DNA from: Patescibacteria group bacterium
Lineage (GTDB): Bacteria; Patescibacteriota; Microgenomatia; UBA1406; GWC2-37-13
Length of the DNA stretch: 35,394 nucleotides
NCBI GenBank assembly: GCA_023380935.1
Contig: JAMCST010000004.1
Span: 1 to 35,394 of the forward strand
Reading direction: 5' to 3'
This document shows, in pieces, positions 1 through 3,513 of the stretch. The stretch's first letter is position 1. Every line of letters starts with the position of its first letter. The position numbers and the translations under genes were made by a program. The notes beneath the pieces were generated by a model that saw only the letters and a program-made list of their open reading frames with translations, had not been told where the DNA came from and did no database searches.

Positions 1-217
1 TGACAGAAAAGATAATCACGGTAAACTTTTTAATTGCCCGTTCAATGTCTACCTGGGTCACGCCGGCATAACCGAATTTTTTCATCAGTTTTTTCCGGAT
101 ACTGACGTCGGTGGTTAAGGCGTCGCGGTAACTTTTCTTATTGGTAAAAAACCACCGGGAATTCCAGTTATAGATGATCCCTAATCGCAATCCCTTGGGA
201 TTAACTTTTTGGCCCAT
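1..217 (-). CDS. rpsC: 30S ribosomal protein S3, N-terminal part
   Basis: The reverse strand from 217 reads MGQKVNPKGLRLGI and continues about 72 residues to the window edge, so the gene is partial. The opening is the invariant S3 start (GQKVNPxGxRLG). S3 binds 16S rRNA in the small-subunit head and lines the mRNA entry channel. Its start overlaps the last 17 nt of rplV in another frame, so translation is probably coupled. No Shine-Dalgarno sequence is visible before the ATG. The order rplV-rpsC is the canonical S10-operon order. Confidence 0.93.
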   Translation of the reverse strand, partial: MGQKVNPKGLRLGIIYNWNSRWFFTNKKSYRDALTTDVSIRKKLMKKFGYAGVTQVDIERAIKKFTVIIFSV

Positions 218-638
218 GTTTTCGCGTGGTGCGTAAACTTTTAGATGATCTTTTTTTCTCCGTTTTTACCGGCGCGGCCGGTTTTTTGATTGCCGACGCC
301 GGCGGCGGCGTACCAACCAAGACAATTTTGATATGTGATAGACGTCGCACAATCGGTTTGGCCGTCCCCCGCCCGCCTGCCCGGTAACGCTTGAGTTTTT
401 GTCCTTCTTCAACGGTTAAAAGTTTAAATTTTAGCATATCGTCACGGCTTTTTAAAGTCGCCTTAGCGTTAACGATGGCCGACCGGATGGCTTTGTGCAA
501 GATTTTTGCCGCACGCTTTGGCGTGTAGTAAAGATAATCCAACGCCTCGACCGGGCGCATCGGTCTGATCGCCGGCAGGAGCCAGCGGAGTTTTCTCGGT
601 GTGACGTCGAGGTTTTTGATATACGTTTGGCTTTCCAT
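201..638 (-). CDS. rplV: 50S ribosomal protein L22
   Basis: A 145-residue protein with the L22 pattern: TPRKLRWLLPAIR near the start, KAAKILHKAI-type helix, SAIVNAKATLKS, then KRYRAGGRGTAKPIVRR and SHIKIVLV. L22 lines the peptide exit tunnel and binds 23S rRNA. Usual length is about 110 residues; the extra ~35 are an Ala/Pro/Lys/Ser-rich basic tail, probably disordered and rRNA-contacting (inference). It starts 1 nt after the rplB stop; rpsS normally lies between these genes and is absent here. The 3' end overlaps rpsC by 17 nt. Confidence 0.93.
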   Translation of the reverse strand: MESQTYIKNLDVTPRKLRWLLPAIRPMRPVEALDYLYYTPKRAAKILHKAIRSAIVNAKATLKSRDDMLKFKLLTVEEGQKLKRYRAGGRGTAKPIVRRLSHIKIVLVGTPPPASAIKKPAAPVKTEKKRSSKSLRTTRKHGPKS

Positions 639-639
639 A

Positions 640-1413
640 TTATTTGCGGCGCTTAACGACTAACCGGGAGGAATACTTATGGCGACGGCGGGTGATCTTC
701 CCCCGTGCTGGCTTACCCCAGGGAGTCTTCGGATGCATTCCTTCACCGCTGCGTCCTTCGCCACCACCATGGGGATGGCTGCGTGGATCCTGGGCCGTAC
801 CTCTTACGGTGGGGCGGATTCCCATATGGATCCTCCGGCCGGCCTTACCGATCACTTCGTCTTTGGCCTCAAGGTTGCCGACTATACCGATGGTGGCGAC
901 GCAGTCCTGAAAAAACTTCCTGACCTCGCCCGAGGGCAACTTGAGGTGGACATAACCCTGTTCTTTGGCAATCACGACGGCCGCCGCGCCGGCACTGCGT
1001 ATCATCTGCCCGCCCTGGCCGGCGTATAACTCAATGTTATGCACGCTGACGCCAATCGGGATATTTTTCAACGGCAGCGCATTACCCACCTTGATCTCGA
1101 CGTTGTCTCCGGCCACCACCTGATCACCAGGTTTTAGATCTTTCGGATGCAGGATGTAACGTTTCTCCCCGTCCTGATACTCGATTAAAGCGATGTGGCA
1201 ATTGCGGTTGGGATCATATTCGATCGTTTTAACCATACCGGTCACGTTTTTTTTGTCGCGCCGGAAGTCGATCACCCGGTAAAACCGCTTCTGTCGGCCG
1301 CCCTGGTGGCGCACCGAGACCTGACCGGACTGGTCACGGCCCGAGTGTTTTTTCAGAATTTCGGTCAACGACCTGACCTTGGGTTGTGTTTGAGCTAGCT
1401 TGGGTGTTTTCAT
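640..1413 (-). CDS. rplB: 50S ribosomal protein L2
   Basis: A 257-residue L2, slightly shorter than the usual ~275 because the N-terminal arm is reduced. Clear landmarks are VRHQGGRQKRFYRVIDFRR, IEYDPNRN, DGEKRYILHP, VGNALPLKNIP and the C-terminal HPHGGGEGR, which carries the His near the peptidyl-transferase centre. Departures from consensus are AQDPRSHPHGG, where AMNPVDHPHGG is usual, and KAGRRIHMG, where KAGRxRWLG is usual. L2 supports subunit joining and peptide bond formation. It follows rplW by 5 nt; a weak purine stretch (AAGG) lies about 11 nt before the ATG. Confidence 0.97.
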   Translation of the reverse strand: MKTPKLAQTQPKVRSLTEILKKHSGRDQSGQVSVRHQGGRQKRFYRVIDFRRDKKNVTGMVKTIEYDPNRNCHIALIEYQDGEKRYILHPKDLKPGDQVVAGDNVEIKVGNALPLKNIPIGVSVHNIELYAGQGGQMIRSAGAAAVVIAKEQGYVHLKLPSGEVRKFFQDCVATIGIVGNLEAKDEVIGKAGRRIHMGIRPTVRGTAQDPRSHPHGGGEGRSGEGMHPKTPWGKPARGKITRRRHKYSSRLVVKRRK

Positions 1414-1418
1414 AGTGA

Positions 1419-1700
1419 TTATGCCTTAGGAAACAAATCTATTTCCCCCGACCTCAAGGTGACATAGGCCACCTTCCGGTCGGGAAAAGCGGTGGGAATA
1501 CGACGGCGTCCCAGCCGGCGGACCTTGCCTTTTCGTTTGGCAATGCGCACCGCACTCACCGTGACTCCGTAACTTTTTTCCAGTGCGGTTTTGATCTGGG
1601 CTTTGTTGGCGTGCGGCGTTACCACGAATCCATAGACGCGATCTTTAACTTTTTGCGTGACTTTTTCCGTCACTAAAGGTTTAATTAAAATGTTTTTCAT
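1419..1700 (-). CDS. rplW: 50S ribosomal protein L23
   Basis: A 93-residue protein starting MKNILIKPLVTEKVTQK, with FVVTPHANKAQIKTALEKSYGV and KRKGKVRRLGRR: the L23 fold with its positively charged loop. L23 sits at the tunnel exit and docks trigger factor and SRP. Length is normal. Its ATG overlaps the rplD stop as ATGA, indicating stop-start coupling in place of an independent ribosome-binding site. Confidence 0.96.
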   Translation of the reverse strand: MKNILIKPLVTEKVTQKVKDRVYGFVVTPHANKAQIKTALEKSYGVTVSAVRIAKRKGKVRRLGRRRIPTAFPDRKVAYVTLRSGEIDLFPKA

Positions 1701-2380
1701 GGTTGTTTTTTGAACAGTTTATTCCAGCAGGATTGATTAAAAACAATGAGCTGATGATTAAGAACGGCGTAAGGATTCAGATCGCTTCCGGTAGTCACGG
1801 TAACCTTGGCCAGATTGCGCGCCGACTTAGCTAGGGCGACGCTTCTGTCAGGCAAAACCAGAAGAATAGTGTTGGCTTGGCGCTTAAGAGAGGTCAACGC
1901 GTCGGACACCTGTTTGGTCTTCGTCAGCGCCAGCCAGGCGTCGTCACAACCGACCACACCGGTTTCCTTGATTTTCCAAGCCAAAGCGTTAAGCAGGAGT
2001 GCCCGGTTCTGGCGCTTGTTCATCTTCGCATGGAACCGACGCGGTTTTGGCCCGCCGACCACACCGCCGCCGACAAAGATCGGGGCCTTAATGTCTCCAT
2101 GACGCGCCCGACCAGTGCCTTTTTGGCGATAAATCTTTCTGGTCGAACCGCTAACCTCACCCCGAGTCTTGGTAGAAACCGTACCTTGCCGCTGGTTGAT
2201 GCGGTAAATACGGACATACTGGGTAAGCGCCGTTAGATTAATCTTTTCTTGTGCGTAAGCCGCGTCCCAGGGAAGTTGACCGGCCGCTTGGCCGGTTTGA
2301 CTGTAAACCGGCACGCCGGACGCCGACGCCGGCGTCTTTTTCCCTGCCGTTTTGCTGGTAGCTTTACTTGAACTTACCAT
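1697..2380 (-). CDS. rplD: 50S ribosomal protein L4
   Basis: A 227-residue L4. The hallmark rRNA-binding segment is present: RQGTVSTKTRGEVSGSTRK followed by QKGTGRARHGDIKAP and the FVGGGVVGGPKPR loop, which reaches into the exit tunnel. The first ~30 residues are a low-complexity Ser/Thr/Lys/Ala extension. In Escherichia coli, L4 also represses its own operon through the S10 leader, which makes it one candidate effector for the attenuator-like leader before rplC (inference). It starts 5 nt after the rplC stop without a clear Shine-Dalgarno; the context is AATCC followed by ATGG. Confidence 0.96.
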   Translation of the reverse strand: MVSSSKATSKTAGKKTPASASGVPVYSQTGQAAGQLPWDAAYAQEKINLTALTQYVRIYRINQRQGTVSTKTRGEVSGSTRKIYRQKGTGRARHGDIKAPIFVGGGVVGGPKPRRFHAKMNKRQNRALLLNALAWKIKETGVVGCDDAWLALTKTKQVSDALTSLKRQANTILLVLPDRSVALAKSARNLAKVTVTTGSDLNPYAVLNHQLIVFNQSCWNKLFKKQP

Positions 2381-2385
2381 AGGAT

Positions 2386-3063
2386 TTATTTCACCGGCGG
2401 CTGAACTTTTAGAAGCGTACCCAAGCTGCCGGGAACGACGCCTTTTACCAACAGGCCGTCCTCATTGGCAGCGATTACCTCAAGATTCTTGATCGTTACC
2501 CGCTGTCCCCCCATCCGGCCGGCCATCCGCTTGCCTTTGTAGACGCGTCCCGGCGTGGTGGTTTGGCCGATGGAACCCGGAGCGCGTTCGCGGTCCGACT
2601 GGCCATGGGTATGCGGTCCTCCCTTAAAGTGATGCCGCACCACCACGCCCTGGAAACCTTTGCCTTTGGCCGTGCCGGTTACCTGAACCCGGTCGCCCGC
2701 CTGAAAAAAAATCGCCGGCTTGATTTCCTCGCCGACGAATATTTTTTTGTTGTTGATGATTAGGCCTTTTTTCTTATTTTCCTCGATCGGGGAAAATTGA
2801 GCAAGCCGGTCGAGGCGAAACTCCCTCAGGTAGCGCAGTGGCGTTACCACACCGGCTTTTTTCCAGACGCCGGCGCGGGAGATCTTAACCCGGCGCGCCT
2901 TACCGTAACCCAGCAACGCCGCCGCATAGCGATCGCCAGGAGCAGACTTGACTTCCAGCAGATAACAAGGAGAGGTTTTGATTAAGGTAACGGGGATCCG
3001 CGTCGTATCGGGTAAAAAATACTGGGTTTGTTTTGATTTCTCTCCTAAAATAAAACCGGACAT
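2386..3063 (-). CDS. rplC: 50S ribosomal protein L3
   Basis: A 225-residue L3 with the loop that approaches the peptidyl-transferase centre: GKGFQGVVVRHHFKGGP, then THGQSDRERAPGSIG and GRVYKGKRMAGRMGGQRVT. It is an early assembly protein for 23S rRNA. It is first in the run rplC-rplD-rplW-rplB-rplV-rpsC and is separated from rpsJ by 141 nt, unlike the near-zero spacing elsewhere in the operon. Its start codon lies 6 nt after the U-run of an intrinsic terminator, and no Shine-Dalgarno is free of that hairpin. Expression is therefore probably set by read-through of the leader. Confidence 0.96.
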   Translation of the reverse strand: MSGFILGEKSKQTQYFLPDTTRIPVTLIKTSPCYLLEVKSAPGDRYAAALLGYGKARRVKISRAGVWKKAGVVTPLRYLREFRLDRLAQFSPIEENKKKGLIINNKKIFVGEEIKPAIFFQAGDRVQVTGTAKGKGFQGVVVRHHFKGGPHTHGQSDRERAPGSIGQTTTPGRVYKGKRMAGRMGGQRVTIKNLEVIAANEDGLLVKGVVPGSLGTLLKVQPPVK

Positions 3064-3069
3064 ATGAGC

Positions 3070-3093
3070 AAAAAAAAAGCCCCAGATTGGGGC
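3070..3093 (-). terminator. Intrinsic terminator immediately before rplC
   Basis: On the minus strand, GCCCCA-AUC-UGGGGC forms a 6-bp GC-rich stem with a 3-nt loop (3093-3079), followed by nine U (3078-3070). It ends 6 nt before the rplC ATG. Because it precedes a gene and follows its own promoter, it reads as an attenuator more than as an end-of-operon terminator. Confidence 0.8.
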
Positions 3094-3117
3094 ATTTTAT
3101 TAACCAATCTGCCAACA

Positions 3118-3153
3118 CTAACACAAATTTCCCCACGCGCGGAAATTTCTCAT
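3118..3153 (-). CDS. Possible 11-residue leader peptide before rplC
   Basis: An ATG lies 9 nt after the -10 box of the rplC promoter and opens a frame reading MRNFRAWGNLC before TAG. Its position matches the leaderless starts of other genes in this window. The coding region spans the first leader hairpin and its stop is 6 nt upstream of the antiterminator strand. It is too short to judge by composition and might be chance. No homologue is recognised. Confidence 0.35.
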   Translation of the reverse strand: MRNFRAWGNLC

Positions 3154-3162
3154 TTAGTTGGA

Positions 3163-3191
3163 ATTATATAATATTAACTCCCTCTGGTCAA
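3163..3191 (-). promoter_or_regulatory. Promoter of rplC operon
   Basis: TTGACC (3191-3186), 17-nt spacer, TATAAT (3168-3163) on the minus strand: near-consensus sigma-70 type. It sits between rpsJ and rplC, so the large ribosomal operon can be transcribed apart from tuf-rpsJ. Confidence 0.8.
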
Positions 3192-3204: not shown

Positions 3205-3513
3205 TTACATTTTCACCTCAACCTCTACGCCTGCCGGCAGCTCCAAATGCATTAGGGCGTCAATCGTCTGGTTGGTCGGATTATTGATTTCCAACAGACG
3301 CTTATGGATTTTTAAACCAAAGTGTTCGCGAGCATTTTTGTCGGTAAACGTCGCCTTATCCACCACGTAAATTTCGTGTTTGGTCGGCAACGGGACCGGC
3401 CCGATCACCGAGGCGCCGGTTCTAATCGCCGTATCGACCAGTTTTTGACAGGTTTCGTCAATTAACCGATAATCATACGACTTAAGCTTGATGCGAATCT
3501 TCCCCTTTGGCAT
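3205..3513 (-). CDS. rpsJ: 30S ribosomal protein S10
   Basis: A 102-residue S10: IRIKLKSYDYRLIDETCQKL, GPVPLPTKHEIYVV, and the C-terminal NQTIDALMHLELPAGVEVEVKM. Length is normal. S10 binds the 30S head and is also the NusE partner in transcription antitermination. It lies 31 nt downstream of tuf, the usual str-S10 junction. No Shine-Dalgarno and no convincing -10 box is seen before its ATG, so how it initiates is unclear. Confidence 0.97.
   Translation of the reverse strand: MPKGKIRIKLKSYDYRLIDETCQKLVDTAIRTGASVIGPVPLPTKHEIYVVDKATFTDKNAREHFGLKIHKRLLEINNPTNQTIDALMHLELPAGVEVEVKM

Follow-up and report, generated by a model that had tools for sequence, protein, structure and literature searches.

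The rplC (S10-type) operon of a member of the Patescibacteria is preceded by a leader that is likely to act as a translation-sensing transcription attenuator. This interpretation is inferred from sequence alone, there being no expression, termination or ribosome-profiling data. The window analysed (the whole stretch of 35,394 nt) comes from a genome of 940 kb that is closest, among named taxa, to Candidatus Roizmanbacteria (class Microgenomatia, Patescibacteria), which with its relatives forms a group of very small bacteria not in culture. On the minus strand of the window the genes run tuf, rpsJ, rplC, rplD, rplW, rplB, rplV, and Pfam supports the identities of rplC, rpsJ and tuf. The leader lies on the same strand, at 3191-3064, and comprises in order a promoter, an ATG, a mini-ORF with a hairpin (P1), an antiterminator strand and a terminator, followed by rplC (Table 1). 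The leader RNA is about 90 nt long and the whole element about 100 nt.

Table 1. Position of the putative attenuator and of the neighbouring genes in the window
Feature	Coordinates	Strand	Remarks
rpsJ (uS10)	3205..3513	-	upstream of leader
Interval from rpsJ stop to rplC ATG	3204-3064	-	contains whole leader
-35 element TTGACC	3186..3191	-	sequence match to sigma-70
-10 element TATAAT	3163..3168	-	spacer 17
Mini-ORF ATG...TAG, MRNFRAWGNLC, 11 codons	3118..3153	-	ATG 3153-3151, TAG 3120-3118
P1 hairpin, 8 bp, AAATTTCC/GGAAATTT, within mini-ORF	3125..3148	-	3148-3141 pairs 3132-3125
Antiterminator 5′ strand CAGATTGG	3104..3111	-	6 nt past mini-ORF stop
Antiterminator 3′ strand CCAATCTG	3083..3090	-	common to terminator
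Antiterminator-strand sequence, also written as CAGAUUGG		-	leader of the window
Intrinsic terminator GCCCCA-ATC-TGGGGC plus T9	3070..3093	-	GCCCCAATCTGGGGC 3093-3079, T9 3078-3070
rplC (uL3)	2386..3063	-	first gene of the putatively controlled operon; ATG at 3063
rplD, rplW, rplB, rplV	201..2380	-	remainder of operon inside window

The promoter, TTGACC-N17-TATAAT, is one of only two 11/12 matches to sigma-70 in the 15 kb scanned, and the ATG of the mini-ORF, 9 nt past the -10 element, lies at the predicted 5′ end of the RNA. CAGATTGG and CCAATCTG form a perfect 8-bp inverted repeat; in shuffles of the upstream sequence with the terminator held fixed, 0.36% of trials yielded a perfect complement of 8 bp at a distance of up to 45 nt. 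Antiterminator and terminator are mutually exclusive because both use 3090-3083. The sequence upstream of rplC has no Shine-Dalgarno. A first-pass annotation had listed promoter, short ORF, hairpin, antiterminator and a terminator with U9 ending 6 nt before rplC, and had stated that the two helices cannot coexist. All of this held, though the strand had been omitted and the parts lie on the minus strand. A plus-strand reading was rejected, as the 35-codon ORF and hairpin found there merely mirror the minus-strand terminator and there is no sign of another affiliation. Taken singly, the leader is not striking: its folding energy departs only mildly from expectation (z about -2) and P1 has an individual folding z of -1.9, so the real evidence is conservation among relatives.

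For this purpose, DNA upstream of rplC was gathered from relatives and aligned by parts. A TATAAT-like -10 served as the anchor and is thus partly a selection criterion for leaders, and the leaders share ancestry, so that counts overstate independence. With these reservations, the leader is conserved by more than chance in the relatives of Ca. Roizmanbacteria. The parts come in the same order in the family and in a few relatives at order level: a TTGACC-like -35, TATAAT, ATG, a hairpin, (C)C[AG]GATTG[GA] and then, after usually 8-19 nt, GCCCCAATCTGGGGC, a U-run and rplC. This layout is kept in 50 or more distinct leaders, and a -35 element with at least 4/6 matches to TTGACA at a spacer of 16-18 is present in 50/52 of the relatives' leaders. 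A covariance model of the Roizmanbacteria-type leader, spanning ATG to U-run, matches 52 of the 72 family genomes with exactly one copy in each, and all 44 copies that could be checked (rplC located) are directly upstream of rplC, 3-136 nt away. In a phylum-wide sample the model matches 2/380 genomes, both members of the family; this sequence version of the leader is therefore confined to Roizmanbacteria and close order-level relatives. Family members without it, through loss or replacement, include G005/G035, G015, G025, G027 and G004. One genus (L148, L151; G035, G005) has lost the entire promoter-leader unit, and rplC begins about 35 nt past rpsJ. In G041 (L129) the antiterminator and terminator have been lost, and a U-run lies directly 3′ of the P1 hairpin.

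The gene to which the leader belongs is indicated by four relatives (L018, L029, L039 and L043) in which rpsJ is >900 nt distant. The unit stays at rplC in all except L039, where rplC is preceded by a different leader, and it is therefore a leader of rplC rather than a tail of rpsJ. These cases also bear on plain punctuation, in which the terminator closes the tuf-rpsJ transcript and an ordinary promoter serves rplC. The presence of a strong terminator between rpsJ and rplC speaks for this explanation, but it is very unlikely: the conserved promoter precedes the terminator instead of lying between terminator and rplC, both the ORF and the antiterminator complementarity are conserved, and the unit adjoins rplC even where rpsJ is far away. 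Elsewhere in the locus, a promoter-like TTGACT-N17-TATGAT lies upstream of tuf (window 4877-4849, minus strand), and tuf-rpsJ is therefore probably transcribed separately. rpsS is not where it is usually found, between rplB and rplV (window 640/638), but in an spc-like cluster, between rplE and rpsH (G000:C5:2698-2940, L159).

Comparison of the leaders establishes that the mini-ORF is selected as an ORF, its start, frame and stop position being kept and its peptide left free; that it is translated remains an inference. An ATG lies 7-10 nt past the -10 element in 47/53 leaders, against 3.7 ± 1.9 in shuffles. With the usual start site, the RNA is predicted to begin at the AUG or up to about 3 nt earlier, transcript starts not having been mapped. 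Read from the first ATG, 47 of the 51 leaders have their first in-frame stop 0-16 nt ahead of the antiterminator strand, the other two frames giving 5 and 13; for a 0-24 nt interval the count is 47, against 14.2 ± 3.2 with a maximum of 24 in 1000 shuffles. The median distance from this stop to the antiterminator is 8 nt, and in roughly one leader in four a leading edge of 10 nt would not reach from the stop to the antiterminator. Mini-ORFs are mostly 10-18 codons long (overall range given as 10-20), and TAA, TAG and TGA all occur. The peptides are unrelated, examples being MLIILCSGTKD, MFIFSQKEKVG, MPIDILVIGIRAQ and MTKIFVVPSVV.

Two rival explanations of the ORF can be considered here. An attenuator specific for an amino acid or a peptide, working through a stall at certain codons or nascent-peptide arrest, is suggested by an anatomy like that of trp/his leaders and by Rfam similarity to Thr, Phe and Leu leaders that is weak and below threshold. 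It is nevertheless unlikely, as no codon run or residue common to the 51 peptides was found and the controlled genes encode r-proteins. The U-rich Phe and Leu codons of the mini-ORF are present because the left arm of P1 dictates them. The second alternative is an insulator only, the stop being kept so that accidental leaderless translation spares an untranslated riboregulator. This accounts for a stop ahead of the antiterminator without any sensing role, but there is very little to recommend it: the ATG is conserved far above chance even though its loss would be the simplest insulation, a median distance of 8 nt is near enough to interfere, and in the Levybacteria leaders described below the stop is inside the strand.

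The leaders possess a mutually exclusive antiterminator and intrinsic terminator, which is the general criterion for an attenuator, although covariation of the antiterminator is seen only across lineages and regulated readthrough is inferred. Among Roizmanbacteria leaders 99% of terminator cells are paired; compensatory changes occur, and none of 500 shuffles reached the covariation score. For the antiterminator the paired share is 96% of cells, but this helix is almost invariant; its covariation within Roizmanbacteria does not exceed that of shuffles and is uninformative because the strand hardly changes. Across lineages, pair 2 of the antiterminator occurs as A-U (CAGAUU/AAUCUG), as G-U (CGGAUU/AAUCUG) and, in Gottesmanbacteria such as L078, as G-C (CGGAUU/AAUCCG). 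The covariance check proposed by the first-pass annotation was thus satisfied within Roizmanbacteria for the terminator and only across lineages for the antiterminator. The letters of the terminator loop hardly vary, and they are complementary to C[AG]GATTGG, which is conserved to the same degree. This favours the antiterminator, as the loop is part of its 3′ strand and would otherwise have no reason to be conserved. P1 is not universal (mean z of -1.15 over 51 leaders).

Autogenous control by an r-protein is possible but rather unlikely. Here one of the operon's r-proteins, such as uL3 or uL4, would bind P1 or the antiterminator and favour the terminator, and the mini-ORF would be incidental; there are no binding data. 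Precedents exist in the S10 operon of E. coli (uL4 with NusA) and in rplJL and infC of B. subtilis (PMC10931766), and the near-invariant C[AG]GATTGG/CCAATCTG and the UUCGGGAA-like P1 loops of one genus could be a protein site. However, this explanation does not tell why ATG, reading frame and stop position are conserved, the sequence and size of P1 vary freely among leaders, there is no Rfam r-leader match, and the leaders of Levybacteria share no sequence despite conserved r-proteins and rRNA.

The Levybacteria-type rplC leaders are unrelated in sequence to those of Roizmanbacteria and follow the same logic. Their order is ATG, a few codons, GGAGGTG, TTG-GCT-ACA-TAG and a terminator such as GCGACTCTATGTGGTCGC-U7, and the ORF stops inside the antiterminator strand (GGCTACATAG pairs with CTATGTGGTC). 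The first in-frame stop is the one in the antiterminator strand in 16/16 leaders, against a null of 3.1 ± 1.6, with lengths to the stop of 33, 36, 39 or 66 nt. Compensatory antiterminator pairs are found in L060 (GGCTGCATA/TGTGCAGTC), L073 (GACTACATA/TGTGTAGTC) and L049 (CTACTT/AAGTGG). An r-protein target is disfavoured because such an RNA should stay recognisable, and only the position of the stop relative to the antiterminator stays. Thus two unrelated sets of leaders have a short ORF so placed that a ribosome on it would affect the antiterminator; this is shown for position and frame, translation again being inferred.

Several further features of rplC leaders were noted. In L050, L073, L086, L111 and others of Levybacteria type, the near-perfect Shine-Dalgarno GGAGGTG is within the mini-ORF, usually 5 nt ahead of TTG-GCT-ACA-TAG on the antiterminator strand, and it could serve either to attract 30S subunits as a decoy or to anchor the terminating ribosome. 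Another type of leader upstream of rplC, GATACTTTGGTATACT ... ACCAAAAGTCTCGGATGAG ... GACCTCAACCGAGGTC-T7, is found in L070, L080, L084, L087 and L100 (Gottesmanbacteria and relatives); in L070 and L100 an ORF from an ATG near the -10 stops at a TGA within CTCGGATGAG. The rplC leaders of L160, L161 and L092 have a GTG in the leaderless position and a 6-codon ORF, GTGGATAARGTTCGTCATTAG, surrounded by a CGTGG/CCACG hairpin and followed by a GGCGCC terminator.

The preferred reading, a translation-sensing attenuator, is supported by the kept ATG at the predicted leaderless position, the stop position, the exclusive helices, the single copy before rplC and the Levybacteria version. The mechanism envisaged is as follows. 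The promoter of the leader would make an RNA starting at, or within about 3 nt of, the AUG. Without translation, the antiterminator would form once its 3′ strand exits RNA polymerase and the operon would be read. A ribosome loading on the leaderless or near-leaderless AUG and reaching the stop would cover the antiterminator strand, so that the terminator can fold and stop transcription short of rplC, whereas a ribosome held up within the mini-ORF would permit readthrough as in the absence of translation. Ribosomes competent for leaderless starts would in this way repress r-protein synthesis, and their shortage, inhibition or stalling would relieve the repression.

Folding models of the nascent stage, in which the 3′ strand of the antiterminator is out and GGGC is not yet, gave an antiterminator probability of 0.84 with no ribosome, 0.78 with a ribosome at the AUG and 0.90 with one in mid-ORF. 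For a ribosome at the stop the values were 0.49, 0.36, 0.27 and 0.21 with its leading edge 10, 11, 12 and 13 nt downstream. The expectation of the first-pass annotation that a ribosome finishing the 11-codon ORF favours termination is hence supported by the comparative tests and by folding, and is still an inference. The antiterminator is usually the less stable of the two helices once the terminator is complete. A switch at thermodynamic equilibrium is ruled out, since the finished terminator prevails whether or not a ribosome is present and only the co-transcriptional stage differs; antitermination must therefore be kinetic or factor-assisted. The physiological signal is the least certain part of the proposal; candidates are free 70S ribosomes, initiation factors or initiator tRNA, and release and recycling. 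Since 70S ribosomes bind leaderless AUGs, which also respond to initiator tRNA and IF3 (PMC9031893), ribosome availability is a plausible, though inferred, signal.

The rplC leader meets the membership criteria of neither the r-protein leaders nor the amino-acid leaders. The E. coli S10 leader likewise attenuates an operon with rplC, rplD, rplW and rplB at an intrinsic terminator in the 5′ leader (PMC10931766), but it precedes rpsJ, is long and highly structured, and has uL4/NusA as effector. The rplC leader follows rpsJ, or stands at rplC when rpsJ is elsewhere, so that the criterion of a uL4-type S10 leader (upstream of rpsJ) is unmet; it is also short, has a conserved mini-ORF and bears no Rfam resemblance. 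In B. subtilis, r-protein operons (rplJL and infC) are controlled by antiterminator/terminator exchange (PMC4538822, PMC10931766), but a bound r-protein, L10(L12)4 or L20, is the switch, whereas the conserved element of the rplC leader is the ORF. The rimP-leader and rpsL-leader (Naville and Gautheret 2010; PMC2965389) are also short attenuators of translation genes with a conserved terminator; they precede other genes, and no mini-ORF is described in the sections of PMC2965389 that bear on them.

In leaders of the trp/his type, a ribosome at the leader stop blocks the antiterminator strand and the terminator forms. The rplC leader differs in its predicted leaderless start and in lacking a helix that terminates in the absence of translation, and runs of regulatory codons, the criterion for amino-acid leaders, are missing from its mini-ORFs. 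The whiB7/wblC genes of Actinobacteria also have a uORF before an attenuated gene, responsive to antibiotics and starvation (PMC12121999, citing Burian and Thompson 2018 and Lee et al. 2022), but differ in gene, phylum and sequence and are not known to control ribosomal proteins. By analogy, the rplC leader would work like the uORF attenuators (trp, whiB7) and fill the role of the uL4-controlled S10 leader.

No Rfam family reached its gathering threshold in the window or in seven relatives' loci. The best sub-threshold matches of the 201 nt query were unrelated sRNAs and leaders, the rimP-leader at 17.8 of 47 bits being far below its gathering score. A survey of new r-leaders has none for rplC in Patescibacteria (PMC7247131), and no description of an rplC leader in this phylum was found in the open-access literature searched, subscription journals not being covered. 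The first-pass annotation had not recognised a leader of this layout before rplC and had placed known S10 control by L4 upstream of rpsJ; the former agrees with the outcome of this search and the latter with the E. coli S10 leader (PMC10931766).

The logic of uORF attenuation is known; what would be new, inferred as it is from sequence alone, is an r-protein operon with a mini-ORF attenuator before rplC. A bolder reading is that the main r-protein operon of the Microgenomatia is under feedback from ribosomes and not from an r-protein, through a decoy start that captures ribosomes which then block antitermination, and that several unrelated leaders have adopted this logic. The decoy would be the leaderless AUG in Roizmanbacteria and a near-leaderless ORF with the internal GGAGGTG Shine-Dalgarno in Levybacteria. 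The balance of evidence tips slightly against this reading at present, and the significance of the leader goes beyond that of a variant uORF attenuator only if the ribosome-availability signal is proven. An element of ~100 nt is portable to E. coli, so that ribosome feedback free of r-proteins is directly testable. Bacteria balance r-protein synthesis by means of r-proteins that bind their own mRNAs. In the Patescibacteria, with their reduced genomes and almost no experimental work on gene regulation, a leader that gauges translation itself would, if the reading is true, be a direct sensor of ribosome capacity.
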